Source: a virus
Reading direction: 5' to 3' (one strand)
DNA: 32,178 bases
IMG/VR virus record: IMGVR_UViG_3300042319_000910
Coordinates: 1 to 32,178 of that record
Below the pieces are notes generated by a model. The model was not told where the DNA came from, searched no databases, and worked only from the letters and a program-made list of their open reading frames with translations. A program made the position numbers and the translations under genes. Below, piece after piece: positions 954 through 24,228 of the stretch; position 1 is the first letter of the stretch, and every line of letters starts with the position of its first letter.

Positions 954-985
954 CAAAGATACAAAAAAAATCCCAAACTACCAAA
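954..985 (-). promoter_or_regulatory. Bacteroidota-type promoter of the DNA polymerase gene
   Basis: On the minus strand TTTG (985-982) is followed after exactly 20 nt by TATCTTTG (961-954). This fits the Bacteroidota sigma-A consensus TTTG-N19/21-TAnnTTTG perfectly. The -7 box ends only 5 nt before the ATG at 948, so the message should have almost no leader. The 14 bases at 974-987 are repeated exactly in the tmRNA promoter (1421-1434). Confidence 0.72.
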
Positions 986-4617: not shown

Positions 4618-4634
4618 ATTATTGTAATTGTTTA

Positions 4635-8875: not shown

Positions 8876-11224
8876 TTATTTTCTTTGTCCGTATGAAAAA
8901 TTGTTTCTACTACTCTTTTCAGATGCTAAAACAATACCACTTGTAACCTTTTGTCCATCTAAATAAACATTATTTGATTTATTTGAAAACTCTTGTCTTA
9001 ATGCTTTCATTTCATTTACTAAAGTATCAATTCCACTAAAAGCCCCAGCATTACCTGTATTATTTGGCGATAATGACATTTTTCCAATGTTAGATGCTGC
9101 ATTTAAATTTTCAATTATATTAGGCGCTGCCACTAAATCATCATTTGGAGATAGATTTAATAACCCACCTTCTTTTGTAGATATTTGAGTTCTACCATCA
9201 GCAGGTGACATTACATCACCAACACTTTTTGCTTTACCCATAGATGATAGTAATGCCGCAACAACTCCAGCCGCTAAAGCAACACCAACAAAAGGCATTG
9301 CCCCATATGCACTCCATACTTTAGCAATTGCTGCCATTTTAGCAGCAATAGCAACTTTCATAGTCATTAACCACATTGCGGTTAATCCTGCTATAATTGC
9401 CGGAAACACACCAGGTATAAAATTTAATACTTTAAATACAAATCCAAGTGATTCAGCTATCATAGTAACTAAAGGTGCTAACCCTTCCATCAATGGTAAA
9501 AGTGCAGTACCAAGAGATGCAACTATTCCTTTAAATGAGTTTTCCATTTGAGTAACCTTATCAGCGATTTCTTGCTGAGCGGCTAATTCTTTGGTTTTAT
9601 TCATCAATTGGTCTTGTGTTAGATTGGTTATATCCAACCCTTTATCTATTGCTTGTTGTGCTTTTATAGATTCATCATCGGTAAGGCCTGATAATAGTTT
9701 TTGGATTTGTAATTGCTTAGTAAGTTGTTCTACTGTCATACCTGCCGCATCTGCTAATACCTTTTTAGTAAACATATCCTGGTCAGCAAATCTACCACTT
9801 CTTTCAACCTGTTTTAATATTTCTTTCTGAGCATCTACGTTTTTACCAGCATATGCTAATGCTCTTGCTTGCGATAAATTAAATTGACCTCCAACAAATG
9901 TTGCAGCTACTAATTCTTTCTCAATTCCATTTTCAAAATCTAAAAGGTCTTCGGTTGTTTTTAATACATCTTTTAATGTAGTACCTAATCTTCTAGCTTC
10001 AATAGCTTGCTTAGCTATTAAATTAACATCACCTTTAAAATAGGTATAAGTACTTTCAGCTGATTCAGCTATATCCGCAAATACTTGCGATGGAGCTACG
10101 CCAGCTAAATTTGCCATTTGAGCTACTTGCTGTGAAACTCCTTGTGCAGTTTCCGCAGATAACCCAGCCATACTCTGCATTATCATACTTACTTTGGCTG
10201 CATCTTTTTGAGCAATTCCAAAGTTTTTATTTAATACAGTCATTGATGATACCAATGCTTCGGATAATCTAGCGTTATCAGCAAATTCTCCTTTTAGTGC
10301 ACTAATCGTATCATATACATCATCAGCCGCTATTCCTAATTGAGAAAAATTATTTCTAATCTTTTTAACTTGATTATCTAAATCTTTTGATTGAGATGCA
10401 GTTATTCCAGTTTCTTCTCTAAACTTTTTAGATGCTGCCGATAATTCTGTAAATGAATCTACAGCTGCTGCTAATAATAATCCTATCAATACAAGTGGTA
10501 ACATTCCCGACATCAATCCTTTACCTAAATCTTTGGCCAAATCAACACCATCTTGAAGAAAACCTGGAAGTTTTTCATATAATCTATTACCTTCTTCTTT
10601 TATTTGATTTAATCGTTCTTCTTGTTGAATTAAATTTTCATTTAATTGAAATAAATCTTTTAATTTTTTTTGTTCAGCAGGTCCTAAACTAGCAATACTT
10701 TCTTCAAATTTAAGTCTTCTATTAGCTGCATCATTTTGACCTAAAATTTCATCTTTTACTTTAGCTGCTTCTTCCGCTTGAGTTGTAATAGATGTATATA
10801 GGTTTGAATATAGTTCTAATTTTTTTTGATTAATTTTTAACTCATCATCGCTTAATCCAAATTGTTGTTCTTTTAAATCTAAAATATCTTTAGCAAGAGA
10901 AGCAAATGCAGAACCTCCTACTTTATTTGTAGTTATTAATTTTCTAGCATTAATGTTTAATTTTGTAAAAGAAGTTCCTAAAGAATCTTGTAAATCTTCA
11001 TATTCTTCAGCTAATGTATTTTGTTTCTCTAATGGTTCTGCTTGTTTTTGTAAAATCTTTAGCTTTTCCTTCTCTTTCTCAATTCTCTTTTCAAGTCTTT
11101 TACGTTCTTCCGCACCAACTATCGCAGCCTTTTTGTTTTGCTCCTCAATACGCTGATTAGTTTCCTCAATTTCTCTAAGAAGTTCTAACCTAAGCTCTTC
11201 TGCACTATCTGATAGTTTATCCAT
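8876..11224 (-). CDS. Tape measure protein, 782 aa
   Basis: The protein sets tail length and is packed inside the tube. Residues 5-75 are a strongly charged coiled coil. A hydrophobic helix lies at about 238-256 (MLPLVLIGLLLAAA). Residues 260-580 are helical with Ala/Gln/Leu. A second hydrophobic cluster spans about 590-665 (FIPGVFPAIIAGLTAMWLM and FVGVALAAGVVAALLSSMG). The C-terminus is Asn/Ser-rich. Coiled coil plus internal membrane-type helices, in a gene lying after the sheath, tube and chaperone-like genes, is the usual tape measure signature. At roughly 0.15 nm per residue it predicts a tail near 115 nm. Its ATG overlaps the previous stop as TAATG, indicating translational coupling. 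Confidence 0.9.
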   Translation of the reverse strand: MDKLSDSAEELRLELLREIEETNQRIEEQNKKAAIVGAEERKRLEKRIEKEKEKLKILQKQAEPLEKQNTLAEEYEDLQDSLGTSFTKLNINARKLITTNKVGGSAFASLAKDILDLKEQQFGLSDDELKINQKKLELYSNLYTSITTQAEEAAKVKDEILGQNDAANRRLKFEESIASLGPAEQKKLKDLFQLNENLIQQEERLNQIKEEGNRLYEKLPGFLQDGVDLAKDLGKGLMSGMLPLVLIGLLLAAAVDSFTELSAASKKFREETGITASQSKDLDNQVKKIRNNFSQLGIAADDVYDTISALKGEFADNARLSEALVSSMTVLNKNFGIAQKDAAKVSMIMQSMAGLSAETAQGVSQQVAQMANLAGVAPSQVFADIAESAESTYTYFKGDVNLIAKQAIEARRLGTTLKDVLKTTEDLLDFENGIEKELVAATFVGGQFNLSQARALAYAGKNVDAQKEILKQVERSGRFADQDMFTKKVLADAAGMTVEQLTKQLQIQKLLSGLTDDESIKAQQAIDKGLDITNLTQDQLMNKTKELAAQQEIADKVTQMENSFKGIVASLGTALLPLMEGLAPLVTMIAESLGFVFKVLNFIPGVFPAIIAGLTAMWLMTMKVAIAAKMAAIAKVWSAYGAMPFVGVALAAGVVAALLSSMGKAKSVGDVMSPADGRTQISTKEGGLLNLSPNDDLVAAPNIIENLNAASNIGKMSLSPNNTGNAGAFSGIDTLVNEMKALRQEFSNKSNNVYLDGQKVTSGIVLASEKSSRNNFSYGQRK

Positions 11225-11469
11225 TAGTTATAATCATTTGGTATCAACCCCCAATCCTGAAACATTCTGAACATTTCAGGTCTATCATTTTTTAATTTAT
11301 CAATTTCCGGCTTATATTTGTAGTTTAATTTATCTACATCAGCCTTTAACTTTTGTAAGACAGGGTCTTTATCAATCAATTTTTGAAGTTTTTCAGGTGT
11401 TCTCTTTTTAGTAAACAATCCAAAAAATTCTTTTAATTTAGATTTTCTTATTTTATAATGTGATGCCAT
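11224..11469 (-). CDS. Small basic protein (81 aa) coupled to the tape measure gene
   Basis: The frame is open back to a TTG at 11493, but I place the start at the ATG at 11469 (MASHYKIRKSK). The late-type box TATTTATA at 11496-11503 would then leave a 26-nt leader, the same spacing as at two other genes, whereas the TTG would sit almost on the transcription start. The protein is 81 residues, Lys-rich and predicted helical, with RTPEKLQKLIDKDPVLQKLK and a C-terminal MFQDWGLIPNDYN. I recognise no family. It ends in TAATG, overlapping the tape measure start. Position between the chaperone-like frames and the tape measure suggests a tail assembly helper, by inference. Confidence 0.72.
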   Translation of the reverse strand: MASHYKIRKSKLKEFFGLFTKKRTPEKLQKLIDKDPVLQKLKADVDKLNYKYKPEIDKLKNDRPEMFRMFQDWGLIPNDYN

Positions 11470-11495: not shown

Positions 11496-11503
11496 TATAA
11501 ATA
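11496..11503 (-). promoter_or_regulatory. Candidate late promoter box before the 81-aa/tape measure operon
   Basis: TATTTATA on the minus strand, 26 nt before the ATG at 11469 and 14 nt after the preceding terminator hairpin. It is one of six intergenic copies near gene starts. I see no TTTG at the expected -33 distance. Confidence 0.5.
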
Positions 11504-11507
11504 TCTA

Positions 11508-11558
11508 ATAAAAGAAAAAAGTTAGGAATAAGAGTGGTTATCTCTTAATCCTAACTTT
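11508..11558 (-). terminator. Intrinsic terminator overlapping the end of the 67-aa gene
   Basis: The arms AAAGTTAGGATTAAGAG (11558-11542) and CTCTTATTCCTAACTTT (11534-11518) match over 17 positions with a single T-T mismatch and a 7-nt loop. They are followed by a T-rich run (TTTCTTTT). The stop codon of the 67-aa gene (11540-11538) lies in the loop, so the last six sense codons form the left arm. Confidence 0.82.
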
Positions 11559-11741
11559 AGATGCGTTGGAAGATTGTGCTTTTTTAGTATCTTCGTTTTC
11601 TTTTTTCTTCGATTCAACTAATTTATTATAATAAAATCTCCTAAGATGGGTTGGCATTTTGTACAATTCCATCATCGAAAAACCATTACTATACTCCACC
11701 ATTTCAAATATTTGAGTGTGGAGTAATAGACTATGATTCAT
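11538..11741 (-). CDS. 67-aa overlapping frame, putative T-type tail assembly chaperone segment
   Basis: The ATG at 11741 lies inside the end of the gp26-like gene, which stops at 11731, giving an 11-bp overlap in the +1 frame. The protein is 67 residues. A helical N-terminus (LLLHTQIFEMVEYSNGFS) leads to MPTHLRRFYYNKLVE at about 28-42, then a Lys/Glu/Arg-rich tail. A short MP-x-x-x-R-x-(F/W)-Y motif is common in the second frame of tail assembly chaperone pairs and in small proteins next to gp26-like genes. It may be made by coupled reinitiation, by frameshifting at the T7 run at 11751-11757, or both. Gene order just before the tape measure fits a chaperone role. Confidence 0.6.
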   Translation of the reverse strand: MNHSLLLHTQIFEMVEYSNGFSMMELYKMPTHLRRFYYNKLVESKKKENEDTKKAQSSNASKVRIKR

Positions 11742-12492
11742 CGCCAGGCCAAAAAAACCCTACGCCCATTGGAATAGGCGCCACCTCACTTTCTCCATCT
11801 TCATGTACATATGTAAATGTCATGTTCATATCTGGAGAGATTTTTTTAATATGTTCTCTGAATGCTCTACTATCTTTTGCTAAAAATGAGTTATTAATGA
11901 ATTTATTGATATGACCTAAATCTGAATTACCATCCACACTTTTAATCATATATCTTAATCTAGTTGTAATTTCATACGAACCATCTTTATTCATTTTCTC
12001 TAATGCTGTTATATCTTTATCAATTAACTTCTCATCACCATGTGTAAGTAATTTAAATACTAATGTATTACCAGTAGGTGTTGTGAATTGAAATTCATTT
12101 TGATTTCCAAAATTAGAATAATCAACATCCTTTGTTTTAATTTGAGCCAAATCTACTGTTGTTTCAATAGATTTTCCTGCTTTAGATGAATAAAATGAAA
12201 TATTATAGTTAGGACCATATCCTAATAGTCTTGTTGCTAATACGATTGCATTTTTATCACCTACTAAAATATCATCTATATTAACAGCATCAACAATAAT
12301 TGATTCAAATAACTTATCCAATACAATTCCTTTTTTAATTAGGTTTGTAGAAGAAAGTATATCTTCCTCTTTTGCTGTCATATATTTTATTGTAATTTGT
12401 CCAGAAGATAGAGGATGCTCTTTTGGATATAATTTACCTTTTGATGGTAAATCCAACACTTCTGTTGGGAAATCGAATTGTTTTTGATTCAT
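11731..12492 (-). CDS. gp26/gp51-like T4 baseplate family protein (PF12322 type), 253 aa
   Basis: Residues 13-23 read LDLPSKGKLYP, followed by GQITIKYMTAKEEDIL (31-46), LVGDKNAIVLATRLLGYGPNYNISFY (77-101) and a beta region. This is the pattern of the T4 baseplate/hub assembly family: LPS-x-G-x-xY, a (Y/R)-M-T-x-x-E-E helix, then G-D-x-x-x-x-L...YG-x-x-Y. T4 relatives help build the central hub. Here it sits upstream of the tape measure where tail chaperone G proteins usually lie, so it may act as a chaperone. It has its own promoter box and lies between two terminators. Near its 3' end GGG TTT TTT TGG offers a +1 slip that would replace the last 6 residues by the 67-aa frame (about 317 aa in all). 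Confidence 0.82.
   Translation of the reverse strand: MNQKQFDFPTEVLDLPSKGKLYPKEHPLSSGQITIKYMTAKEEDILSSTNLIKKGIVLDKLFESIIVDAVNIDDILVGDKNAIVLATRLLGYGPNYNISFYSSKAGKSIETTVDLAQIKTKDVDYSNFGNQNEFQFTTPTGNTLVFKLLTHGDEKLIDKDITALEKMNKDGSYEITTRLRYMIKSVDGNSDLGHINKFINNSFLAKDSRAFREHIKKISPDMNMTFTYVHEDGESEVAPIPMGVGFFWPGDES
11751..11760 (-). promoter_or_regulatory. Candidate +1 frameshift site (GGGTTTTTTT)
   Basis: In the zero frame the site reads GTA GGG TTT TTT TGG CCT. Phe-tRNA on the second TTT can move +1 and still pair with TTT, while the next zero-frame codon is TGG; after slipping, GGC is read and the frame continues into the 67-aa ORF with no stop. A -1 slip would meet TGA within five codons. No recoding structure was tested. 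Confidence 0.35.
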
Positions 12493-12518
12493 AACTTTAC
12501 TTTGTTTAAGTTTGTATA

Positions 12519-12526
12519 TATAAATA
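12519..12526 (-). promoter_or_regulatory. Candidate late promoter box before the gp26-like gene
   Basis: TATTTATA on the minus strand, 26 nt before the ATG at 12492 and about 30 nt past the tube-gene terminator hairpin. Confidence 0.5.
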
Positions 12527-12553
12527 CATAGTTTTTAAAAAATTAGAAAGCAT

Positions 12554-12582
12554 AAAAAAGGGGATATTTTAGTATCCCCTTT
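12554..12582 (-). terminator. Intrinsic terminator after the tail tube gene
   Basis: The perfect 10-bp hairpin AAAGGGGATA (12582-12573) / TATCCCCTTT (12566-12557) with a 6-nt loop is followed by three more T, making six T in a row on the minus strand. It lies 21 nt after the tube stop codon. Confidence 0.9.
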
Positions 12583-12603
12583 AGTTTTATGTTTTTTTGA
12601 ATA

Positions 12604-13104
12604 TTAATATTCAAGAATTGCGTAATCGTATGTTAATGTCAAATCGATTGTTGCTGGTTCATTTGTGTTAGAAAAGTCCAATTCACCAAAAGAAGCTTTA
12701 GTAATAAATGCTCCTTTTAAAGTCCATTGTTCAACCTTATCACCAACAGGACCTAACATATAAAAACTAATGTCCTTTTTATAGAATTCAGCGTATCCAT
12801 CTCTACCAGTAATTGATTCATGTGATAATCTCACCCACTCCATTACTAATTGAGCTGCTGAAGGAACTACTGGGTCATATAAAGTGATATTTAAGTCCTG
12901 CCACTCACCTTTACCCTTTAATTTTCTATAAACGTTGATATGGTCTATTTTTACAGTTTCAAAATTTATTTCTGGTCTGTTTGCTGTTTTAACCATATAT
13001 GCGGGAATACCCACACTTGTCATTTCCATATAGTAGCGGTTTTTCATCTTCGGTTCGAAGGTATCCGCTATCATTTGGGTATAATTTAATATATTATCTG
13101 CCAT
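12604..13104 (-). CDS. Tail tube protein (gp19-like), 166 aa
   Basis: This protein forms the inner tube of the contractile tail. Its 166 residues match the usual length of gp19-family tubes (about 160-170). Family features are an N-terminal FEPKMKNRYYMEM block, PAYMVKTANRPEINFE, the YRKLKGKGEWQDLNITLYDP hairpin, LVMEWVRLSHESITGRDGYA, and closing strands WTLKGAFITKASFGELDFS and EPATIDLTLTYDYA. It lies 53 nt downstream of the sheath, with a candidate promoter box 24 nt before the start and a strong terminator after it. That arrangement suits a protein needed in high copy. Confidence 0.93.
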   Translation of the reverse strand: MADNILNYTQMIADTFEPKMKNRYYMEMTSVGIPAYMVKTANRPEINFETVKIDHINVYRKLKGKGEWQDLNITLYDPVVPSAAQLVMEWVRLSHESITGRDGYAEFYKKDISFYMLGPVGDKVEQWTLKGAFITKASFGELDFSNTNEPATIDLTLTYDYAILEY

Positions 13105-13128
13105 TTTTGTTCCGTTTTATTTTATATT

Positions 13129-13136
13129 AATAAATA
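13129..13136 (-). promoter_or_regulatory. Candidate late promoter box before the tube gene (variant)
   Basis: TATTTATT on the minus strand, one base from the common box, within AGATATTTATT, which matches the copy at 11496-11503 over AGATATTTAT. It lies 24 nt before the ATG at 13104. Confidence 0.42.
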
Positions 13137-13157
13137 TCTACTTTGTTTATTTTCGTA

Positions 13158-15506
13158 TTATGCTGAGAAAGATGCTCCAGTTGGTAAGATGTTGAAATCA
13201 ATTACTATGAATTCAGCAGTCTTAGTTGGTTGAAGGAATATTGCTCCAGCTAATATGTTTCTATCAATTACATCCGGTGTGTTATTAGATTCATCCATTA
13301 CAACATTGAATGCGTACAAACCTTGTCTTTGTTGGATACCCTCTAAATAAGGAGTCACAGTGTTAATGAATCTTGCTCTAGTTTCAGTTGTATTTTGTTC
13401 AAATACTAAGTAACGAGATGTAGATGCTATGAACTTCTTCATAGTGATTAACAATCTTCTAACATTGATTCTATCTAAAGCAGATGCTCTATCTTGCAAT
13501 GTCTTTTGTCCAAATGCTACAATACCTTGTCCAGGGAAAGTTGCGATAGGGTTTACTTTATTTTCATAAAGGATATCTCTTTCAGCGTGTGTTAATCTAT
13601 TCAATACACTAACTGCTCCAGTAATACCACCCCTATTCAAACCAGCCGGTGCGAACCACTCTGCTGATAATCTATCACTACTAGCGAATACCGCTGGTAA
13701 TAATGTAGATGGAGGTACAGTTGTAAGTTTGTTTGTGTTAGAATCTATTGTTTTCATCCAAGGATAGTAACAAGCTGCGTAGTTTGAATCTACTGCTTGC
13801 GCTTGTTCAGTTGCTGTTGTAATTGAAGAATTATAATCAGTAAAATCAGCAATATAGAAACAATCTTGTCTATTTTCAACCATATCAATCATTTTAGTAA
13901 CGATTGCAGGATGTAATTCTCTATTAATACCAGGCATTGATACTAAGTTAATATCATATTCATCAGGATTAGATAAAGCGTTAATTGCTTTTGAATATCC
14001 TAAAGAGCCAGATGCTGTTGATTTAGAACAGTTTAAACCTTGTGTATTTGCTGCTCCCCATCCATCATCACCAGCTAATGCTATTTTTACAGTTGGAGAT
14101 ACACCATCAAAACCACCTTGGAAACCTAAAATAAATTGTCTCTTAACTAAATCAGCTCCAGCTGAACCAGTCATAACATAACTCAATTGAGAATCAAATG
14201 AGAATGCTGTATTTGCTCCCGCAACTGCTCCGTTAGGAATTGGATTTAAATAAGTTGAATTATCTCCAGCTACACCAGCCGTATCAAAGTTCATACCACT
14301 ATAATATACAGTAGAAGTTGTTGTGTTATTTGCTGAACCAGTTTGGTAAATTACCGCTGGTACATATGATGCTTCGGTTGAGTTATTAGTTGCTATTGGA
14401 TTTGTATATGCTCCATGTCCAAATGGTGCTGCTGATATTGGGAATGAACCCGGTTCAGATACTTCAACTCTAAAGTGAATTGATTTATTTGAGTAATCAC
14501 CATTTTCAGTAATCTTACCATTATCATCAATTGTAAACCATCTGTCGCCAATTACTCTAGCAATATATCTAGGAGATGATGGGTCTAAGTTTACATTACC
14601 AAATGATTCAATTATAGAAGCTTTCTTATCACTATCACCATAACTTCTAAGTGTTACAGAGAATGTTGAATAATCCGTTGAACTATCTTGCCCAGCTGCC
14701 TTAACATTAGAAATACCAATTTTGTATTTAGTATTATATGGAGTACCATGTCCTAATGTATGGAAACGGAAAAGTTGATATCTTTCACCACTTACTAATT
14801 GAGATACAACCCAAGGAGTAGATGCCTCTTGAGCATCATATTCAAAATTTTGGTCAGGTAAATAAAGTAAAGAAGCAGATGCTCTATTACCAATTATATC
14901 GGATGAACCAGTAAATGAAGTTGCTATATTTTCAAAGAATGTATAAGCGTATGCGGCTTTAGCACCAAATGGAGATTCACCAAATACATCAGCTACATCA
15001 TTTGTTGCTGTTGCTAAAATTGATGCAGATACACTTGCTGCGGCTGAACCAGAACTTATCAAACCAGATATTACAAATGAACCAGGTATAGTAGCGCTAC
15101 TTGTAATAGTAGTTTCTGCTTGTATAAATCCTACATCTTTTAATCCATATGCAGTTGAATGTAATGTAGAGATTAATTTTTGGGAAGTTCCATTAGTAGA
15201 ACCTGATATCAAAATACCTAAAGGTTTTACTTGTTTATATCCATTAATTCCTCCAACTCTTACAATAGTTGCTGCTCCAGCTTCTCTTAAGTAGTTTTGT
15301 ACTGCATATTCAGTATAATATGTTCCATCAGGTGTTCCAAAAATTTGTTGGAATTCTGATTGACTTCTTACAATAGTTGGAATGAATGCAGGTCCTTGTT
15401 TAAAAGGTCCTACGAATGCTGCTCCAATTTGTCCAACTCCTTGCGCTAAGAAGGATAGGTCATTTTCTCTTGTAAATACGCCGGGTGATACGATTCTTTC
15501 TGCCAT
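13158..15506 (-). CDS. Contractile tail sheath protein (gp18-like), 782 aa
   Basis: The N-terminus has the sheath signature SPGVFTRENDLSFLAQGVGQ, then IGAAFVGPFKQGPAFIPTIV and a SQSEFQQIFG block. The C-terminal third carries the conserved core: FPGQGIVAFGQKTL, SALDRINVRRLLITMKKFI, YLVFEQNTTETRARF and the final AEFIVIDFNILPTGASF strand that docks neighbouring subunits. T4 gp18 is 659 aa; the extra length lies in the Ser/Thr/Gly-rich middle (about residues 90-480), the usual place for surface-exposed insertions. The start has GGAG 7 nt upstream, the only clear Shine-Dalgarno-like sequence I found here. A promoter box and a terminator precede it, and the leader is about 60 nt. Confidence 0.96.
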   Translation of the reverse strand: MAERIVSPGVFTRENDLSFLAQGVGQIGAAFVGPFKQGPAFIPTIVRSQSEFQQIFGTPDGTYYTEYAVQNYLREAGAATIVRVGGINGYKQVKPLGILISGSTNGTSQKLISTLHSTAYGLKDVGFIQAETTITSSATIPGSFVISGLISSGSAAASVSASILATATNDVADVFGESPFGAKAAYAYTFFENIATSFTGSSDIIGNRASASLLYLPDQNFEYDAQEASTPWVVSQLVSGERYQLFRFHTLGHGTPYNTKYKIGISNVKAAGQDSSTDYSTFSVTLRSYGDSDKKASIIESFGNVNLDPSSPRYIARVIGDRWFTIDDNGKITENGDYSNKSIHFRVEVSEPGSFPISAAPFGHGAYTNPIATNNSTEASYVPAVIYQTGSANNTTTSTVYYSGMNFDTAGVAGDNSTYLNPIPNGAVAGANTAFSFDSQLSYVMTGSAGADLVKRQFILGFQGGFDGVSPTVKIALAGDDGWGAANTQGLNCSKSTASGSLGYSKAINALSNPDEYDINLVSMPGINRELHPAIVTKMIDMVENRQDCFYIADFTDYNSSITTATEQAQAVDSNYAACYYPWMKTIDSNTNKLTTVPPSTLLPAVFASSDRLSAEWFAPAGLNRGGITGAVSVLNRLTHAERDILYENKVNPIATFPGQGIVAFGQKTLQDRASALDRINVRRLLITMKKFIASTSRYLVFEQNTTETRARFINTVTPYLEGIQQRQGLYAFNVVMDESNNTPDVIDRNILAGAIFLQPTKTAEFIVIDFNILPTGASFSA

Positions 15507-15513
15507 TTTATTT

Positions 15514-15517
15514 CTCC
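15514..15517 (-). promoter_or_regulatory. Shine-Dalgarno-like GGAG of the sheath gene
   Basis: GGAG followed by AAATAAA and the ATG. The other starts in this window are preceded by A/T-rich leaders with no comparable match, so this site may raise sheath translation. Confidence 0.55.
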
Positions 15518-15566
15518 GATTATATTGTTTTTAAATGCTAATATTGAGTATATACAATATTACCTA

Positions 15567-15574
15567 TATAAATA
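15567..15574 (-). promoter_or_regulatory. Candidate late promoter box before the sheath gene
   Basis: TATTTATA on the minus strand, 60 nt before the ATG at 15506. It starts 7 nt beyond the hairpin of the preceding terminator, so terminator tail and promoter overlap. Confidence 0.45.
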
Positions 15575-15627
15575 TAAAGAAAATGTCCAAAACACAAATT
15601 TGTTTATAAATAAGTGCTTTGGACATT
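15573..15627 (-). terminator. Intrinsic terminator between the EF-hand gene and the sheath gene
   Basis: The arms AATGTCCAAAGCAC (15627-15614) and GTGTTTTGGACATT (15595-15582) form a 14-bp stem with one G-U pair and an 18-nt AT-rich loop, followed by TTCTTTATATTT on the minus strand. It lies 24 nt after the 133-aa gene stop. Confidence 0.78.
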
Positions 15628-15651
15628 CAATATTATTGTAAGTAAATACTA

Positions 15652-16053
15652 TTATGCAGGTGCTCTCTCACCAGTAGGTTCAGGTGTAACACTACCAGAG
15701 GTAGGAGACCAAGGTAAATCGTTTTCAGTAACATCAATTCTACTGTATTTAACCTCATCTATTTGTCTTTGTATCATTTCGTTAATATGGTTCATATAAT
15801 TAGATGGACCTACTCCACTAACATAATCTTTAATCCATTCCAATACTATTTCTTCTGTCAAATCTTGATAGTCTATAAAACCATCACCATTTACATCTTT
15901 AGCTTCAAACGGAGTTGCTCCATGAAATATTCCAGTATTACCATCGGAATCCGTACCAGTTATTGTCCATTGAGTACCAACCACAATATTATTTAATGTA
16001 TCAGTATTTTGCTTTCTTAATGATGTCAATTTCCATTCGTATGTCAGTGCCAT
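15652..16053 (-). CDS. 133-aa virion-type protein with an EF-hand calcium loop
   Basis: Residues 53-64 read DVNGDGFIDYQD, a textbook EF-hand loop with acidic or Asn ligands at positions 1, 3, 5, 9 and 12, Gly at 6 and Ile at 8. The rest resembles small proteins common near the tail genes of marine T4-like phages: a beta start (YEWKLTSL), VVGTQWTITGTDSDGNTG, GATPF, then LTEEIVLEWIKDYV, a helix near the end and a terminal PW. In those relatives, as I remember them, the EF loop position holds a shorter non-calcium turn. The role is unknown. It has a private promoter box (19-nt leader) and terminator and lies directly before the sheath gene, suggesting a strongly expressed structural part. Confidence 0.78.
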   Translation of the reverse strand: MALTYEWKLTSLRKQNTDTLNNIVVGTQWTITGTDSDGNTGIFHGATPFEAKDVNGDGFIDYQDLTEEIVLEWIKDYVSGVGPSNYMNHINEMIQRQIDEVKYSRIDVTENDLPWSPTSGSVTPEPTGERAPA

Positions 16054-16072
16054 AATTTATTTGTTTATATGT

Positions 16073-16080
16073 TATAAATA
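16073..16080 (-). promoter_or_regulatory. Candidate late promoter box before the EF-hand gene
   Basis: TATTTATA on the minus strand, 19 nt before the ATG at 16053, in an intergenic gap of 42 bp. Confidence 0.45.
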
Positions 16081-16095
16081 TATATTTTTTTGTTT

Positions 16096-16527
16096 TTAAA
16101 CTTCTAATGAACCACTATAATAATCAGTAGTTAATAAATGTCTATATGCTTGTGCCATATGGTCTAATTCAGATGGTACTTCTAACATAAATCTACAATA
16201 ATGGTCCATACCAGCTGTTCCGATACTTACACCATATTTATTATCTCCTGCAATTGTACCAACAAATCCAACTGGTTTTGCATCATTATTTCTTGCAGCT
16301 TGGTCTTTCCAAATGGTAACAGCTATTGTTGCCACATATCCCGCTATCCAATAAACTTCAGTACCAGGAGATTCATCTCTAACTGTAAACCCATCTGGTC
16401 TAGACGTATCCACTGGTGGGGGAGTATCTGCCATTCTTTTTTCAATTGTTACGTTTGTAACTACATGATATGCATTAGGTACAATAACTCCAGTTCCAGG
16501 TATTTCAAAATCTTTAATTAGTGCCAT
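16096..16527 (-). CDS. Unrecognised 143-aa protein following the S74 fiber gene
   Basis: I do not recognise the family. It begins MALIKDFEIPGTGVIVPNAYHVV, followed by a Pro-rich loop at residues 34-46 (DTPPPVDTSRPDG). Strands VYWIAGYVATIAVTIWKDQAA and a helical C-terminus (ELDHMAQAYRHLLTTDYY) follow. The beta-rich start with an exposed loop suits a virion component. It starts 4 nt after the 2337-aa fiber stop with leader AATAATATG, so it is probably made with that fiber. It could be a fiber-associated or connector protein, but only its location suggests that. Confidence 0.75.
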   Translation of the reverse strand: MALIKDFEIPGTGVIVPNAYHVVTNVTIEKRMADTPPPVDTSRPDGFTVRDESPGTEVYWIAGYVATIAVTIWKDQAARNNDAKPVGFVGTIAGDNKYGVSIGTAGMDHYCRFMLEVPSELDHMAQAYRHLLTTDYYSGSLEV

Positions 16528-16531
16528 ATTA

Positions 16532-19500
16532 TTATCCTTTAATATTAAATATTAAATTATTTAAAATTTCTTTTAATTCTTTAATTTCTTCTGATTGTTT
16601 TTTTACAATTTCATTTTGCTCCTTAAATGCTTCAATAAATAATCCTGCAAGATTACCATATGCAACCGCATATTCATCTAAATCTTTCACATATGATACA
16701 ACTTCCGGAACAATTTCATTTACTTCTTGTGCAATTACACCCAATTGTCTTTTATCAGCACCACCATCAGGAATCGTATCATTTTCATTATAAATTTTAG
16801 TATAGTAAATACCTCTTAATTGTAAAACTTTATCCAAAGCGTTATCAACTGTAACAATATCCTTTTTCTTTCTTATATCCGAATAAGCTACGATATTGCC
16901 TGTTGCGTAAACACCACCATTACAATATATTGCATACCCTCCGGCGGTTGAGGATGTACCCATTCCAGTACAATTATTTCCCAATGAATGATAAAACACC
17001 CATCTACCATATCCCTCTATATAACATCCACCATTACCACTTCCATCAAACATATAGTAAGGTGAGTTACCAGTACCAATACTTAAACCATACCACCCAT
17101 TTCTATTACCATCAATTATCCATGAACCATATGACCTGTTACTTGGGTAGAAGTGTGCACCATTTATTCCAGAATATATTCCATGATGTCCAGTAAGATT
17201 TTGCCATGTATGCCAAAATGAATAGTTAGATGAACCACTCAATTGAATTAGAATACCACTCATATCATAATCAGAATATAATCTAACTCCTTCATATGAA
17301 CCAGCGTTTGCTCCAAACTTAAGACCTGTATGATATGCAATTCTTAAATCCGGATAAGGATAACCCCAACCACCACCTTCTTGGAAGATAGAGTATGCGT
17401 TTGTACCTTGTCCAGAGTTACCACCAACTCCAGTGAAATCTAAACGAGCTATTCTACAATAATCATTGAATTCACCAGAACTCAATTGAGAATATCCAGT
17501 TGGGTTACAATAATATGATGTATTAACTCCTTTATAAAAGGCGTTAGCCATTACATTTTTATTACCACCACCAGGTCCAATTCTTACTTCACCACCATCA
17601 TAGTAGTTTAATTCCAATGGGTCACCACCTCTACCATTTACAGTATCAAAATATCCGTTTCTACCAATAACGCCATATGAACTATCACCTTGCCAATATA
17701 AATTATAATAATATACTGCGTTTAAAGATGATGTTCCATCAGGATCTAAATAATATCCACCATTGTTTGAATCTCTAAATGATGTTGCCCATAATGCTGA
17801 TGTACTTGAATTATTATCATACATTGCAATCTTATACCAACCACTAGGGCTATTCCAGCTATATCTCCACCATAAGTTTGCATTCACACCACCAATCATC
17901 TGCCATCCGTATGCGTTACTACCATTACTCCAGTGGAATGTTTGAATACCAACGTGATGTGATGTATCACCCGGTCTATTTTGTGCACCAGTAGAACCCC
18001 AGCTATCAATAAATCCAGAACCCCATCCTAACATTTCATTGAAAGTATAAGAACCCCATCCCATATTACCAGTCCAATAAACTTGGTCTCCTGTTATGTA
18101 AGGTCTCCAGTAATTATATCTACCGGTTATACCAGTTTTAGCTTGCGTAGTTTGATTCCATCCATTAATATTTGAATCTCTATCTCCAGCAGGATTTAAA
18201 TAGTATCCAGTACTTTCATTATCACGATAATAAGTTGCATCTACATATTGTCTAAACCAAGCTCTTGATGAAATTGCTGCGAATGTTGTACCATAGTTCA
18301 TTATCAACATACCATGGTCATTCAAAAATCCAGCTTGTCCTCCCGCGTTTGGATGTGACCAAGCTATACCATACATATTGTTGGTAGCTGAGCCATCATT
18401 TGATATTTTATATGCATCACCCATCGCATATACCATTTGATATCTAGTTGATGTATAAACCCCAACTATACCAGACCCATAGTTATTATCAAGATACAAA
18501 TAGTTTCCAGAATAAATGTTGTATCCGTTAAGCCTTCCATTACTATACCAGTTTGTTTCACCATGAAATCTAATGTTCTGTCCACTATAATAGTTTAAGT
18601 ACATTTGCTTACTAGCACTTGCCGAGTCCAAATGTAAATTACCATCCGTTGAAATTACTTGTGCTTGATAACTACCAAGTTTATTACTTGCAGCACCTAC
18701 ATATAGATAAGCTCCCCAAGATGCATTTGGTCCATATAGTGTACCAGAGTTATCTCCATTTTGTACAGCCTCTCTAACATATGAATAGTTTCCAGATACA
18801 GCAAATGTTTTAATTGTTGAACCATTACTACTTTGAATTCTAAATCCAGTACCAGAGTATGCTCTAATTTCTTCCCAATCATCATCTGCGTTCCATAAGA
18901 AGTGATTTGTATCTCCGTTAGTTCTTAGATATAATCTTTGGTCATTCAAACCATAAGAACCAGTCATATTAATACCACCACTAATAGGAATTGCATAAGA
19001 ACCATAGTTTCCAGCATGCAACATTGCTCTCCATCCACTTTGCCAGTTTGTAGTACCATACCATCCGTATCTATGAAGAATTTCACCCTGATAGAAGTAA
19101 TATTGGTCATGTTGATGTCCACCTAATCCATAGTATTCAATTAATGTACCATATGAAGATGGTGCTCCACTTTGAGTGTAACTATCCCACATTCTAAATG
19201 ACATTGATTGAGTACCACTACCATTACCATGAGCTCCCCAACTATAATCCCATTCTCTATAAGGGAATGTTACTTGGTTTACTACTATTCTATTACTATT
19301 CCATAAATAAGTTGTATCATCTGAAACATAATATAATGGTGAACGGAAATTACCATTTACCGAATCTGGTGTTATCCATACAGTTTGGTCAGTCATTCTA
19401 ATTGTTGTAAAATTAGAGTTACCTTCTGTACCAGTATTCAAATCTATTCTTCTTGATGAACCTCTATTTGAGATAATCATTTTACCAGTACCATCATGAT

Positions 19501-22500
19501 TTAATGAGAAACCTTGAGCTGTATAAGCTGCATAAGTTCCAAATGATTGAGATGAGCCTCCCAAACCAATATATGCTCTATGTGTACCATTTTCAGTAAA
19601 GTCTGCTAAACCATATGTAGTTGAATCATTTAAATTTAATCTAACATTACCAGTAGTAAGATTATTAGTTAAAGTAGTTGTGCCAGCTGTAGTTAATGAA
19701 TTTATATTAGATGTACCTGCCGGGTCTGAATAGTATCCAGTATTATCTCTATCATAGAATCTATATGCGTATAAATCTCCAGCTAAAGTAAGAGTACCAC
19801 CATTAGATAATGCCATTATTTGAGTTGCCCCAGCATTATACCAATCATATGCACCATTACCAAAGTTTCTTAAACGAGATGTACCAGCATCTTGTATAAA
19901 TCCAGTATAATTAGAAGCATCTCCAATATTTAAACCAGTACTCCAACCAACACCAGCTGCACCACCTGCCCAAATACTTACTCTACCAGAAGAAATTGCA
20001 GCTGTGCCACTTAATACAGTTTGTCCACCATATACATAGAAAGGAACTGATGGTGAACCAGGAGAACCAACGGATACACCTGCTGTAAAGTTATTATATC
20101 CATTAAGGTATAACATGTTAGTATTCCAACCGCTATATCTCCCTATTGCTTGCCATCCAGTTAATTGTACAGTCGTATCACCACCACCTGCTACGTTTAA
20201 TGTAGGTCCAGCAAAATATCCATTACCACTTTCATTTACTGAAAATAATTCGTTTGATGCTTTTCTTGCATTGTTTCCAACTATAAATTTACTATCGGTT
20301 TGGTTATTATTAGAATCTATACTTACACGTACATCACCAGCACCAGCCATATAAAGTACATTACCAGATGAATTATCTTGTACAAGAATCACATCATATG
20401 TATTATCTCTATACAAACCAGCGGAAGTATCACTTAAATAAAATGCCCCTCCATTTCCACCAGAGTTTGCAATTACCTGATTGAATACAACGTTATCGGT
20501 TGTACGAACATTTTGGTTCATATTATAAGCATAAGGGTCACTTACACTATCCAATAGATATTTCCAACCAGTCCAAGAGTTACCACTATTAGTACTATAA
20601 TCACCAAAACGAACTCCTAAACGAGTACCACCATAAACAGAACTATATGGTGTATATAATTGTAACGAACCGCCACCACCAGAATAAGTTCTCATCATCA
20701 TTACAGACCCATAATTTGGAAATCCTTCTGTAGATGAAACGAATGCATTTGTTATGCCTTGTCCAAATGCTTGTGGTAAAGATGATGCACTCCAACCATA
20801 ATTAGCTAATGCATTTAATAGGTTAGCCGATGTTGCTACACCACTTAAGTTTGATGTTACGTTTACAAATGTTGGTGAATCGGTTGTTCTAAGATTTTGA
20901 TTCATTAAGTGAACTTCCGTAGCTCCCTGTCCAGTATCAACCGTAGCAAACGTTACTGCATCAGTTGTACGAACATTTTGATTCATTGCGTACAATTCAT
21001 TTGCACCTTGTCCAGTATTAACGGTTGCAAATGTTACACCATCAGTAGTTCTTACGTTTTGGTCCATTAAATAAACTTCGGTTGCTCCTTGTCCTGTGTT
21101 TAATGTACCACTAAGAACTACGTTACCACTTACGTTTACGTTATCATCAAATGACCATCTATCATTACCCTCATCCCAAATAAATTGTTTTGTTGCTGCA
21201 TTACCTCTCTTAACTTCTATACCAGCGTTTTCGGTTGGTGTGGTTGATGCTCCAATATCTGCGTTTAATGTAATGATATTATCACCTACATTTAAAGTTG
21301 TTGTATTAATATATGTTGTTGTACCACTTACAGTAAGGTCACCACTAATTGTAGCGTTACCAGTTACTGCTAATGTAGTTCCATCAAAAGTTAAATTTGA
21401 TTCAACAGTTCCGTTTGGCGCAGTTCCATTTAAAGTTATTACACCATTATTTGTTCCACCAGTTAATGATAATAATCCAGATGAACCAGATGTACCACGT
21501 GTTCCTGATGTGCCAGAAGTTCCTGATGTGCCAGAAGTTCCTGATGTACCGCTTGTGCCAGAAGTTCCCGAACTTCCACTTACACCAGATGTTCCTGATG
21601 TGCCACTACTTCCACTTGTTCCCGATGTGCCACTTGTACCAGATGTTCCTGATGTGCCACTTGTACCAGATGTTCCTGATGTACCTCTTGTGCCAGATGT
21701 TCCTGATGTGCCAGACGTTCCCGATGTTCCAGAAGTTCCGGATGAGCCACTAATACCAGATGTTCCCGAAGTTCCGCTTGTGCCAGAAGTTCCCGATGAA
21801 CCACTAACTCCAGAAGTTCCTGATGTACCAGATGTACCATTTGAACCTTGTGCCCCAGACGTACCACTTGTGCCAGACGTTCCTGATGTACCACTTGAAC
21901 CTTGTGCCCCCGATGTACCACTTGTGCCAGAAGTTCCTGATGTACCTCTACTTCCGCTTGTGCCAGAAGTTCCTGATGTACCAGACGTTCCTGATGTACC
22001 ATTTGAGCCGGATGAACCTTGTATTCCAGAAGTTCCTGATGTTCCAGAAGTTCCTGATGTTCCACTACTTCCACTTGTGCCAGACGTTCCTGATGTTCCC
22101 GATGAACCACCTGTGCCACTTGCTCCACTAGTACCACTACTTCCAGAAGTTCCTGATGTACCCCTACTACCTGATGTGCCGCTTGTACCGCTTGTGCCGC
22201 TTGTGCCACTTGTACCACTTGTACCACCAGCGCCACCAGCTCCACTTATACCAGATGTTCCAGAAGTTCCTGATGTACCAGAAGTTCCTGATGTGCCGCT
22301 TGTGCCACCACTTCCAGATGTACCACCACTTCCTGCAGTACCAGAACCTCCACCTGCTCCAGTTAGACCAGATGTTCCCGATGTACCACTTGTGCCAGAT
22401 GTACCGCTTGTGCCAGAAGTACCTCCACTTCCACCAGTTCCAGTTGAACCAGTTGGTCCTATTAATCCCGATGTACCAGACGTTCCCGATGAGCCACTAC

Positions 22501-23545
22501 TACCACTACTACCACTCACTCCACTACTTCCACTAGTACCAGATGACCCAGATGTACCAGATGACCCAGAAGTTCCCGATGAACCAGATGAACCATTTTG
22601 TCCTGATGTTCCTGATGTGCCAGAAGTTCCTGATGTGCCAGATGAACCGCTTGTACCAGAAGTTCCTGATGACCCAGAAGTTCCACGACTTCCTGATGTG
22701 CCAGAAGTTCCTGATGTGCCAGAAGTTCCTGATGTGCCAGATGTTCCTGATGTACCAGACGTTCCCGATGTACCAGAAGTTCCTGATGTGCCCCTTGTGC
22801 CGGATGTTCCTGATGTACCACTTGTGCCAGATGTTCCTGATGTGCCGGATGTTCCTGATGTGCCAGAAGTTCCTGATGTGCCAGAAGTTCCTGATGTGCC
22901 GCTTGTACCAGATGTACCAGATGATGCTGCAGATGTTTTTATACCTATTTTACCACTTACAGTATTATAAACTAAAACTTCTTGAGTTGTTAAATCTTGT
23001 TGTAGTGAACCAGTTCCAAATGTTAATGAACCAGTTATACCAACACTACCAGTAAATTCTTGCTTATCATTTTGTGCATCACCAAATTTGTTACTTCCAC
23101 TTGCGTAGATTATTGATGATGAAATATATGTTGCGAATAATTCAGTTGTATTTATTTTTCCAGTTACATTTAAGTTACCAGCAATATTTGTATTTGTGTT
23201 TACTTGTAATCCTAAATTTGGAGATATAATTGCTGTTGCAGAGCCTGATTTTAATCTGTCTAAATCCCCAATTGCACCAGCATTAATATTAAATAATCCA
23301 CCTCCATCACCTCTAAATAATGATGCTGTTATTGAACCACTAATTTGTGTGTTTCCTCTTATTTGCAAAGTAGAACCACCACCAGTTCCTATAATATTTG
23401 TCTGAACTGCGGATGCTGTAAAATTTCCTACAACACTTACAGATTCCGATGAAGCATTTATAATAGAGCTACCACTTACAAAAAGAGATATACTATTTAC
23501 ACTATTTAAATTTAAGCCATTTGGGTCTTTACCATTAAACTGCAT
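16532..23545 (-). CDS. Giant tail fiber, 2337 aa, with Gly-X-Y repeats and S74 C-terminal chaperone
   Basis: Residues 1-205 form a beta-rich N-terminal adhesion-type region with FRGDGGGLFNI and LKSGSATAIISPNLGL modules. About 207-690 is a Gly-Thr-Ser triplet stalk. Residues 690-760 hold SNLTFDGTTLAVTGN, a module also present in the other fiber. About 810-910 has tandem 27-residue repeats around GQGATEVYLMDQNVRTTD. Further on lie four Y-x-D/N-P modules such as TGYYLDPDGTSSLN. The end is a Peptidase_S74 intramolecular chaperone: Ser2222 in AYSDIRKKKD, with Lys at +5, LGVIAQEV, and a coiled coil (NEIVKKQSEEIKELKEIL). S74 domains trimerise, fold the preceding fiber and cut before the Ser, releasing about 116 residues. 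It is probably a receptor-binding fiber. Confidence 0.9.
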   Translation of the reverse strand: MQFNGKDPNGLNLNSVNSISLFVSGSSIINASSESVSVVGNFTASAVQTNIIGTGGGSTLQIRGNTQISGSITASLFRGDGGGLFNINAGAIGDLDRLKSGSATAIISPNLGLQVNTNTNIAGNLNVTGKINTTELFATYISSSIIYASGSNKFGDAQNDKQEFTGSVGITGSLTFGTGSLQQDLTTQEVLVYNTVSGKIGIKTSAASSGTSGTSGTSGTSGTSGTSGTSGTSGTSGTSGTSGTSGTSGTRGTSGTSGTSGTSGTSGTSGTSGTSGTSGTSGTSGSRGTSGSSGTSGTSGSSGTSGTSGTSGTSGQNGSSGSSGTSGSSGTSGSSGTSGSSGVSGSSGSSGSSGTSGTSGLIGPTGSTGTGGSGGTSGTSGTSGTSGTSGTSGLTGAGGGSGTAGSGGTSGSGGTSGTSGTSGTSGTSGTSGISGAGGAGGTSGTSGTSGTSGTSGTSGSRGTSGTSGSSGTSGASGTGGSSGTSGTSGTSGSSGTSGTSGTSGTSGIQGSSGSNGTSGTSGTSGTSGTSGSRGTSGTSGTSGTSGAQGSSGTSGTSGTSGTSGAQGSNGTSGTSGTSGVSGSSGTSGTSGTSGTSGISGSSGTSGTSGTSGTSGTSGTRGTSGTSGTSGTSGTSGTSGTSGTSGSSGTSGTSGVSGSSGTSGTSGTSGTSGTSGTSGTSGTRGTSGSSGLLSLTGGTNNGVITLNGTAPNGTVESNLTFDGTTLAVTGNATISGDLTVSGTTTYINTTTLNVGDNIITLNADIGASTTPTENAGIEVKRGNAATKQFIWDEGNDRWSFDDNVNVSGNVVLSGTLNTGQGATEVYLMDQNVRTTDGVTFATVNTGQGANELYAMNQNVRTTDAVTFATVDTGQGATEVHLMNQNLRTTDSPTFVNVTSNLSGVATSANLLNALANYGWSASSLPQAFGQGITNAFVSSTEGFPNYGSVMMMRTYSGGGGSLQLYTPYSSVYGGTRLGVRFGDYSTNSGNSWTGWKYLLDSVSDPYAYNMNQNVRTTDNVVFNQVIANSGGNGGAFYLSDTSAGLYRDNTYDVILVQDNSSGNVLYMAGAGDVRVSIDSNNNQTDSKFIVGNNARKASNELFSVNESGNGYFAGPTLNVAGGGDTTVQLTGWQAIGRYSGWNTNMLYLNGYNNFTAGVSVGSPGSPSVPFYVYGGQTVLSGTAAISSGRVSIWAGGAAGVGWSTGLNIGDASNYTGFIQDAGTSRLRNFGNGAYDWYNAGATQIMALSNGGTLTLAGDLYAYRFYDRDNTGYYSDPAGTSNINSLTTAGTTTLTNNLTTGNVRLNLNDSTTYGLADFTENGTHRAYIGLGGSSQSFGTYAAYTAQGFSLNHDGTGKMIISNRGSSRRIDLNTGTEGNSNFTTIRMTDQTVWITPDSVNGNFRSPLYYVSDDTTYLWNSNRIVVNQVTFPYREWDYSWGAHGNGSGTQSMSFRMWDSYTQSGAPSSYGTLIEYYGLGGHQHDQYYFYQGEILHRYGWYGTTNWQSGWRAMLHAGNYGSYAIPISGGINMTGSYGLNDQRLYLRTNGDTNHFLWNADDDWEEIRAYSGTGFRIQSSNGSTIKTFAVSGNYSYVREAVQNGDNSGTLYGPNASWGAYLYVGAASNKLGSYQAQVISTDGNLHLDSASASKQMYLNYYSGQNIRFHGETNWYSNGRLNGYNIYSGNYLYLDNNYGSGIVGVYTSTRYQMVYAMGDAYKISNDGSATNNMYGIAWSHPNAGGQAGFLNDHGMLIMNYGTTFAAISSRAWFRQYVDATYYRDNESTGYYLNPAGDRDSNINGWNQTTQAKTGITGRYNYWRPYITGDQVYWTGNMGWGSYTFNEMLGWGSGFIDSWGSTGAQNRPGDTSHHVGIQTFHWSNGSNAYGWQMIGGVNANLWWRYSWNSPSGWYKIAMYDNNSSTSALWATSFRDSNNGGYYLDPDGTSSLNAVYYYNLYWQGDSSYGVIGRNGYFDTVNGRGGDPLELNYYDGGEVRIGPGGGNKNVMANAFYKGVNTSYYCNPTGYSQLSSGEFNDYCRIARLDFTGVGGNSGQGTNAYSIFQEGGGWGYPYPDLRIAYHTGLKFGANAGSYEGVRLYSDYDMSGILIQLSGSSNYSFWHTWQNLTGHHGIYSGINGAHFYPSNRSYGSWIIDGNRNGWYGLSIGTGNSPYYMFDGSGNGGCYIEGYGRWVFYHSLGNNCTGMGTSSTAGGYAIYCNGGVYATGNIVAYSDIRKKKDIVTVDNALDKVLQLRGIYYTKIYNENDTIPDGGADKRQLGVIAQEVNEIVPEVVSYVKDLDEYAVAYGNLAGLFIEAFKEQNEIVKKQSEEIKELKEILNNLIFNIKG
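16535..16882 (-). other. Peptidase S74 / intramolecular chaperone domain
   Basis: The domain comprises the last 116 residues of the 2337-aa fiber. The cleavage Ser2222 lies in SDIRKKKDI, matching the family's S-D-x-R-x-K-x-x-I block, and QLGVIAQEVNEIVPEVV is the second conserved block. The C-terminal heptads form a trimeric coiled coil. Cleavage before the Ser is expected from the family. Confidence 0.88.
20870..21110 (-). repeat. Tandem 27-residue (81-nt) repeats in the S74 fiber
   Basis: Three consecutive copies share TGQGA-(T/N)-E-(V/L)-x-x-M-(D/N)-QN-(V/L)-RTTD. A fourth, partial copy (MNQNVRTTDNVVFNQV) lies about 400 bp further downstream in the gene, near 20490-20540. At DNA level the copies differ at many third positions. 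Confidence 0.75.
21475..22925 (-). repeat. Gly-X-Y (Gly-Thr-Ser) triplet repeat region of the S74 fiber
   Basis: Nine-base protein triplets coding Gly-Thr-Ser run for about 485 residues, varied by GSS, GAQ, GVS, GIQ, GSR and GTR. Glycine stays at every third position through most of the run. Synonymous codons vary between units. The long open frame on the opposite strand is a by-product of this composition. Confidence 0.92.
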
Positions 23546-23564
23546 TCCGTTTACCTTTTATTTT

Positions 23565-23897
23565 TTATGATACTTCTAATACTGAAACAACAACATCGGC
23601 AGAATTTGCTAATGATGATGTTACTGATATAAAATCATTTGCTCCTAAAACTAATTTTTGTTCTCCACCAACCAAAACAGTTGCACTACCTTGTGGTATC
23701 AATACATCTTTAACTAAATATACACATTTATTTTGAGTTGAATTTCTAACCATAGCACTTACTGAAATATTTTGTGATGCTGCATTTGCAACATTCACAC
23801 CAATTATCGTAGTTGTTATTGCTAATGGTGTTTGGTATGCAATTACGCCAGCCGTTCCTACCGAACCTGTAATACTATTTTTGAATGTGTTTGCCAT
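23565..23897 (-). CDS. Small beta-rich virion-type protein, 110 aa
   Basis: The protein of 110 residues begins MANTFKNSITGSVG and continues AITTTIIGVNVANAASQNISVSAMV, a Cys-Val-Tyr strand (NKCVYLVKDVLIPQG), GEQKLVLGANDFISV and a final DVVVSVLEV strand. This alternating pattern, with I-G-x-N-V-A-N and ending L-x-x-x-D-x-I-x-V, recurs in small beta-sandwich proteins of marine tailed phages placed near fibers or structural genes. No precise role is known to me. It sits 12 nt after the 92-aa gene and 19 nt before the S74 fiber gene and is probably part of the same message. Confidence 0.7.
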   Translation of the reverse strand: MANTFKNSITGSVGTAGVIAYQTPLAITTTIIGVNVANAASQNISVSAMVRNSTQNKCVYLVKDVLIPQGSATVLVGGEQKLVLGANDFISVTSSLANSADVVVSVLEVS

Positions 23898-23909
23898 TTT
23901 ATTTTATTT

Positions 23910-24188
23910 TTATCCTAATGCTATTGCAAATGCTAATGCAGTATCTAATACATCAACATTATCAACTCTAAATCCTCCTTGTGTTAAAAATATAGAACCA
24001 GTGATAACTTGAGAACCAGTTACAAATAATCTACTTGTTACATTTAAATTACTAAATGTAGCTTGCTCTACTTCAATAGTACCTTTAAATGAACCAGTAA
24101 TAGAGCCCGTAAATGAACCACTTAAATTAGCGTAAGCATTTGAAGCTTGTGAAATTGAGCCGGAAAATATGGGACTATGAATTATCAT
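23910..24188 (-). CDS. 92-aa fiber-like protein
   Basis: The protein is 92 residues, Ser/Gly/Thr-rich and beta-prone: SPIFSGSISQASNAYANLSG, then FTGSITGSFKGTIEVE and LFVTGSQVITGSIFLTQGGF. The GS-(I/F)-x-G-S-(F/I) alternation matches the N-terminal adhesion modules of the two giant fibers, so it may be a short relative that binds fibers or forms a short fiber tip. The final residues (VLDTALAFAIALG) are hydrophobic. A promoter box lies 26 nt upstream, making it the first gene of the unit containing the 110-aa gene and the S74 fiber. Function beyond that is unknown. Confidence 0.7.
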   Translation of the reverse strand: MIIHSPIFSGSISQASNAYANLSGSFTGSITGSFKGTIEVEQATFSNLNVTSRLFVTGSQVITGSIFLTQGGFRVDNVDVLDTALAFAIALG

Positions 24189-24196
24189 CTATATTA

Positions 24197-24218
24197 TATA
24201 CATTTCGTTATGTGTATA
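24197..24218. repeat. Short inverted repeat between promoter box and 92-aa gene start
   Basis: TATACA and TGTATA are separated by 10 nt, overlapping the downstream edge of the promoter box. It could be a hairpin or an operator, but six-base AT-rich arms also arise by chance. Confidence 0.25.
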
Positions 24219-24228
24219 AATATAAATA
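24215..24228 (-). promoter_or_regulatory. Candidate late promoter (two overlapping boxes) before the 92-aa gene
   Basis: TATTTATATTTATA on the minus strand contains two overlapping TATTTATA copies. The nearer one ends 26 nt before the ATG at 24188. Confidence 0.5.

Follow-up and report, generated by a model that had tools for sequence, protein, structure and literature searches.

In the Bacteroidota, promoters read by the primary sigma factor (sigma-A) carry TTG at -33 and TAnnTTTG at -7. The sigma-A box published for flavobacteria is TAnnTTTG, and individual sites vary around it (PMC9723704). The late promoters of phage T4 consist of a lone -10-region box, TATAAATA, without a -35 element, which is read by the phage sigma factor gp55 with the help of gp33 and the gp45 clamp (PMC1524935). 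Group 2 jumbo phages encode sigma factors that redirect the host RNA polymerase; like the viruses described here, they are T4-type phages, and one of their subgroups includes phages of Bacteroidota (PMC7824862). In the open-access literature, outside of which most subscription papers lie, we found no late promoter sequence reported for T4-like Bacteroidota phages and no report of the protein family of immuto26A_153, described below, as a sigma factor.

The DNA under study is a virus record of 32,178 bases (IMG/VR IMGVR_UViG_3300042319_000910), referred to below as the window. Its minus strand carries all of its genes, which include those for tail fibre-like proteins, a small EF-hand protein, the tail sheath and tube, a gp26-like hub, a probable tape measure protein and the baseplate. 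A DNA-level search of a phage collection found no relative. We report that a box with the core ATATTTATA marks the starts of virion-structure operons in widespread T4-like Bacteroidota viruses, and that it is supported as a candidate late promoter.

A lone box before six tail-region genes

A sequence-only reading of the window had pointed to an octamer upstream of six tail-region genes, at 26, 26, 24, 60, 19 and 26 nt from the respective ATG, and all six boxes and spacings proved exact, on the minus (coding) strand. The first box, TATTTATA, lies at 11496-11503, 26 nt from the ATG (at 11469) of an 81-aa gene (11224-11469), which is followed by the probable tape measure gene (8876-11224); the corresponding gene of a 274-kb relative keeps the box. 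The same octamer is found at 12519-12526, 26 nt ahead of the gene for the gp26-like baseplate hub (11731-12492; PHROG 150 baseplate hub, E 7e-9), and an intrinsic terminator detected by a terminator scan (12557-12582, minus strand) ends about 30 nt upstream of it. The tail tube gene (12604-13104; PHROG 4542 tail tube, E 2e-30) is preceded at 24 nt by the variant TATTTATT (13129-13136), and the tail sheath gene (13158-15506; PHROG 23 tail sheath, E 3e-75) at 60 nt by TATTTATA (15567-15574). The last two of the six boxes, both TATTTATA, stand at 16073-16080, 19 nt before the EF-hand (DUF7936) gene (15652-16053; PF25590, E 3e-15, plus a weak EF-hand match), and at 24215-24222, 26 nt before a 92-aa gene without a family match (23910-24188). 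The latter box is overlapped by an extra TATTTATA, read from the sequence at 24221-24228 on the minus strand. A second TATTTATA upstream of the sheath gene (15605-15612, minus strand) sits in the loop of a terminator-like inverted repeat, ATGTCCAAA...TTTGGACAT, and is probably not the active sheath box.

No -33 element accompanies these boxes, as had been claimed: the host-type TTTGG is absent at the proper distance upstream of all six, and the TTTTGG upstream of the sheath box belongs to the inverted repeat and is 7-8 nt too close to serve at -33. None of the six shows the Bacteroidota sigma-A combination of TAnnTTTG at -7 and TTG at -33. A scan for E. coli-type promoters was uninformative here, with 72 found and 68 in shuffles.

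By raw number the octamer is unremarkable, TATTTATW occurring 19 times on both strands of the whole window against 13.8 expected, a count reached by 8 of 100 shuffles; what stands out is its placement. Seven of the eight minus-strand copies of TATTTATA fall in intergenic DNA, which comes to 1,068 nt in total, and every one of them is in sense toward the next gene. We compared the nine window gaps, namely the six bearing a box and three without (949-1432, 4618-4634, and 23546-23564), with dinucleotide shuffles, the kind of intergenic control that the sequence-only reading had proposed. The gaps hold seven sense and no antisense copies of TATTTATA, whereas the shuffles average 0.34, and none of 3000 reaches seven. 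The accompanying statement that coding DNA contains few copies is about right for the sense strand, where TATTTATW occurs three times (16634, 29635, and 31624), the rest being antisense. The observation of the box is thereby confirmed.

An IMG/VR scan with the sheath protein yielded 80 relatives. We took the distinct upstream regions of the homologues of each gene, scoring a box as kept when TATTTATW lay within 100 nt upstream. It was kept before the 81-aa gene in 30/30 regions, the hub gene in 35/35, the tube gene in 27/27, the sheath gene in 25/26, the EF-hand gene in 22/22, and the 92-aa gene in 5/5, that is, in 144 of 145, whereas ten neighbouring operon-internal genes, boxless in the window, had one in only 2 of 104; because the homologues are related to one another, they do not count as independent trials, yet the difference from the operon-internal genes stands. 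After the removal of near-identical regions, which left 13-15 at each of the five alignable sites, the octamer columns remained invariant or nearly so, and the flanks were variable at some sites.

Two promoter classes and their distribution across genomes

Word counts in the upstream regions of the 274-kb relative revealed two families, one of host-type promoters and one of the lone ATATTTATA. The host-type promoter has TTTGG about 23-24 nt before TATATTTG, and its consensus agrees with the published TAnnTTTG (PMC9723704). The second class, hereafter the late box, has the 9-mer core ATATTTATA, occasionally GTATTTATA or ATATTTATT, without a -33 element, and mostly lies some 15-30 nt from the first ATG of structural operons. 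Of the host-type promoters, 24/26 had TTTG in the -33 window, compared with 7/31 of the late-box promoters, a comparison favoured by preselection of the host-type set for TTG in a wider upstream window, although the fixed-column TTTGG was not imposed. The late box resembles the host -7 element TATATTTGTA, except that A replaces the G and no -33 element is left.

The window itself holds both classes, with late boxes in the tail region and host-type promoters before the tmRNA gene and the gene at the left end. The tmRNA gene (1005-1390, minus strand; Rfam RF00023, 94.2 bits), which ARAGORN missed, has its promoter at 1401-1432 on the same strand, with TTTGG at 1428-1432 and TATATTTA at 1401-1408. 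The other host-type promoter (954-985, minus strand; TTTGG at 981-985, TATCTTTG at 954-961) precedes a gene cut by the left end of the window (1-948). This gene probably encodes DNA polymerase A, because the relative has a matching arrangement of the tmRNA-side gap and the tail genes, next to which lies a homologue of polymerase A that has a host-type promoter.

We read the 274-kb relative in full. It carries 37 intergenic copies of TATTTATA, compared with 3.7 expected, and 33 of the 37 face a gene, whereas the reverse complement, TATAAATA, does so only three times. Its upstream regions hold 30 boxes, against a mean of 3.0 and a maximum of 11 in shuffles. Late boxes occupy 15/33 structural gaps and 14/91 gaps elsewhere (P=0.001), so that 14 of the 29 boxed gaps fall outside the regions called structural, and host-type promoters follow the opposite trend (1/33 versus 19/91, P=0.02). 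A few boxes stand before nonstructural genes, such as the ribonucleotide reductase gene of this relative. A host-type promoter and a late box occur together in the regions upstream of 132920-133549 and of 161242-162063, the latter being a single-strand DNA-binding protein gene. An association of late boxes with upstream terminators was weak in this genome (5/26 versus 10/101) and was dropped as evidence.

The cultured Flavobacterium phage immuto, which infects Flavobacterium sp. LMO8, shows the same preference, with 33 of its 45 boxes intergenic and boxes standing before the terminase, portal, sheath, tube, hub, and tape measure genes. Counting upstream gaps of at least 20 nt, we found a box in 17/26 gaps of the structural/lysis modules and 5/64 others (P=5e-8, a value somewhat flattering since the module borders were set from the annotation after the box positions were known). 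The association with structural genes rests on gene identity, not on timing. The immuto gaps also contain another upstream word, TATATTTAGGTAT, which has a strong strand bias (TTTAGGTA, 18 versus 2) and possibly represents an early or middle promoter class of its own.

Run on T4 as a positive control, the same script recovered the known TATAAATA, with 18 of its 19 intergenic copies in sense. Gene-facing copies of TATTTATA and TATAAATA numbered 7 and 18, the opposite of the 274-kb relative (33 and 3). Three Cellulophaga phages of unrelated families, each scanned over its first 50 kb, showed no enrichment of either octamer facing genes. The box was not enriched in Rhodothermus phage RM378 either, although that phage encodes a remote homologue of the sigma-like protein described below, so the box does not extend as far as RM378. 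Bacteroidota-type promoters, GTAnnTTTGnA, were also found in the Microcystis phage Mel-JY01 (PP395634), where 14/14 intergenic copies face a gene. Mel-JY01 has the late box and the sigma-like gene as well, although its recorded host is Microcystis, and this host label may deserve checking.

A sigma-like protein in box-bearing phages

A gp55-like sigma gene, which the sequence-only reading had suggested looking for, was absent from the window fragment; a sigma-like gene is, however, present in both the 274-kb relative and the cultured immuto. The unannotated immuto26A_153 gave a weak match to PHROG 234, the T4 late sigma family (gp55; E=0.008), and the same PHROG 234 search of the 274-kb relative gave none. 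The 274-kb relative encodes a homologue of immuto26A_153 at 12519-13241, and further homologues are found in Mel-JY01, an uncultured 484-kb phage, and at least 600 viral contig stretches; the protein is about 230-240 aa in size. All three long genomes bearing the box also carry the sigma-like gene.

Profile and structure comparisons strongly suggest that the protein is sigma-like. SigI models (NCBIfam) matched 23 of 43 family members (best E-value 1.3e-5), and the remaining top-ranking models likewise mostly represented sigma factors; for the one family with a known curated cut-off, matched by member 1, the score lay far below it. Pfam Sigma70_r2 did not match the protein, a search with PHROG 12791 found nothing, and no sequence match was obtained in the PDB. 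An hhalign comparison with gp55 gave E=0.006 but a probability of 6%. A first structure model, led by the protein of the 274-kb relative, had a mean pLDDT of 74 and a pTM of 0.44. In a Foldseek search of the PDB its matches were mostly sigma factors, and no match reached an E-value under 0.001. The N-terminal domain of SigE (region 2) superposed on the model with an rmsd of 2.0-2.4 Å over 65-67 columns (probability 0.94), and T4 gp55 (7d7c) was matched with a Foldseek probability of 0.84. In a viral structure library the best match had E=1.7e-4, and numerous other matches were named phage sigma factors. When the immuto-type sequence led a second model, the sigma matches were only weak and were mixed with ferritins. 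On these grounds, the immuto26A_153 family probably consists of sigma-region-2 proteins.

Two remoter matches were seen. RM378 has an unannotated 264-aa ORF (17032-17826) that matches the family with E=9e-10 and equals in length the best viral structure hit of the model, besides a separately annotated sigma factor. Cellulophaga phage phi13:1 has a weak 51-aa match to the sigma profile (E=2e-4).

The late box ATATTTATA was found in none of 133 distinct 700-nt regions upstream of the sigma-like gene, which fits a factor made before the late genes. In the nearest clade, up to 31 of 61 such regions match the host-type pattern, a rough figure in that some loose matches use the TTTGG of a neighbouring promoter as their second half, while diverged promoters escape the pattern. 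In the 72 regions of the more distant clade nothing matched this pattern, and the absence of the late box is firmer than the host-type count.

Readings of the box and their meaning

We consider the six boxes to be late promoters served by the host RNA polymerase and a gp55-like phage sigma factor, in a lineage of contractile-tailed Bacteroidota phages of the T4 superfamily, and put the probability of this reading at roughly 0.8. The late promoter reading is supported because the box is enriched in sense in intergenic DNA, conserved at orthologous sites, and concentrated before the structural and lysis genes of immuto. The ordinary host-type promoters would serve the other genes of these phages, and the sigma-like protein would be made by the phage, often from such a promoter. 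It would probably replace the host sigma factor on the host RNA polymerase and read an altered -7 box that host sigma-A would not, and the head, tail, and lysis genes would thereby be switched on. That the protein reads this particular box is suggested by their co-occurrence, and transcription from the boxes would be late.

The likeness to T4 that had been noted from the sequence holds in its logic but not in its sequence. As in T4, a lone box without a -35 element stands before structural genes in phages with T4-type head and tail genes, and a phage protein resembling sigma region 2 is predicted. The sense box, however, is TATTTATA, the reverse complement of T4's TATAAATA, and resembles the Bacteroidota -7 element rather than the E. 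coli -10 box. A sliding clamp was also not detected, with no PF02916 match over the cut-off and no PF00712 match in three genomes, a search that could miss a diverged clamp. The candidate sigma factor differs further in a predicted C-terminal helical region (helices 161-176, 185-196, and 200-224), which T4 gp55 (185 aa) is, to our knowledge, not known to have. A more specific version of the preferred reading is that this very common group of Bacteroidota phages practises T4-type late transcription without a clamp, in which one phage sigma factor with its own C-terminal helical domain would replace gp55, gp33, and gp45 and read a host -7 box changed from G to A and lacking -33; we regard this version as tentative, at somewhat less than even odds.

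A phage-specific sigma-like factor and a relaxed host box had been offered as two possibilities, and they turn out to be partly one thing, in that the box looks like a host -7 element whose G has been replaced by A and whose -33 partner is lost. The box shares the TATATTT core of sigma-A promoters, true examples of which are present both in these genomes and in the window, and differs in having A for the host G and no -33. It could therefore be a variant sigma-A -7 element read by the host holoenzyme, perhaps with a phage coactivator that makes -33 contacts dispensable, the sigma-like protein having another role. The two classes of box differ mainly at one base (TATATTTA versus TATATTTG), flavobacterial sigma-A sites do vary around TAnnTTTG (PMC9723704), and hybrids exist, a good -33 being combined with TATATTTA in the tmRNA promoter of the window and in one promoter of the 274-kb relative. 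Nevertheless, the classes are well separated at -33 (24/26 versus 7/31) and differ by genome region (1/33 versus 19/91 for host-type promoters, 15/33 versus 14/91 for late boxes), the first 50 kb of three unrelated Cellulophaga phages show no enrichment of such a box, and each of the three long box-bearing genomes has the sigma-like gene. Reading by the host holoenzyme is thus unlikely.

The box might instead be no promoter but a signal in the 5' leader for translation or mRNA stability; Bacteroidota are not known to have Shine-Dalgarno sequences, so another upstream element could serve, and a similar distance of 15-30 nt separates many boxes from the ATG. However, operon-internal genes lack the box (2/104), the sheath box is conserved despite lying about 57-60 nt from its ATG, and in the same genome the box is missing from most genes that have a host-type promoter, which makes a leader signal very improbable. 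Chance occurrence in AT-rich intergenic DNA, with which the raw window count would agree, is refuted by the sense-only enrichment over dinucleotide shuffles, the conservation, and the whole-genome strand asymmetry, and its probability is negligible.

If late transcription by a phage sigma factor is the true reading, a large and largely uncharacterised group of Bacteroidota phages would have a readable expression programme, with host-type promoters first and the late box next, and late operons could be annotated from sequence alone. It would also provide, beside T4, a second case of a phage sigma factor reading a lone box, with a cultured phage-host pair.
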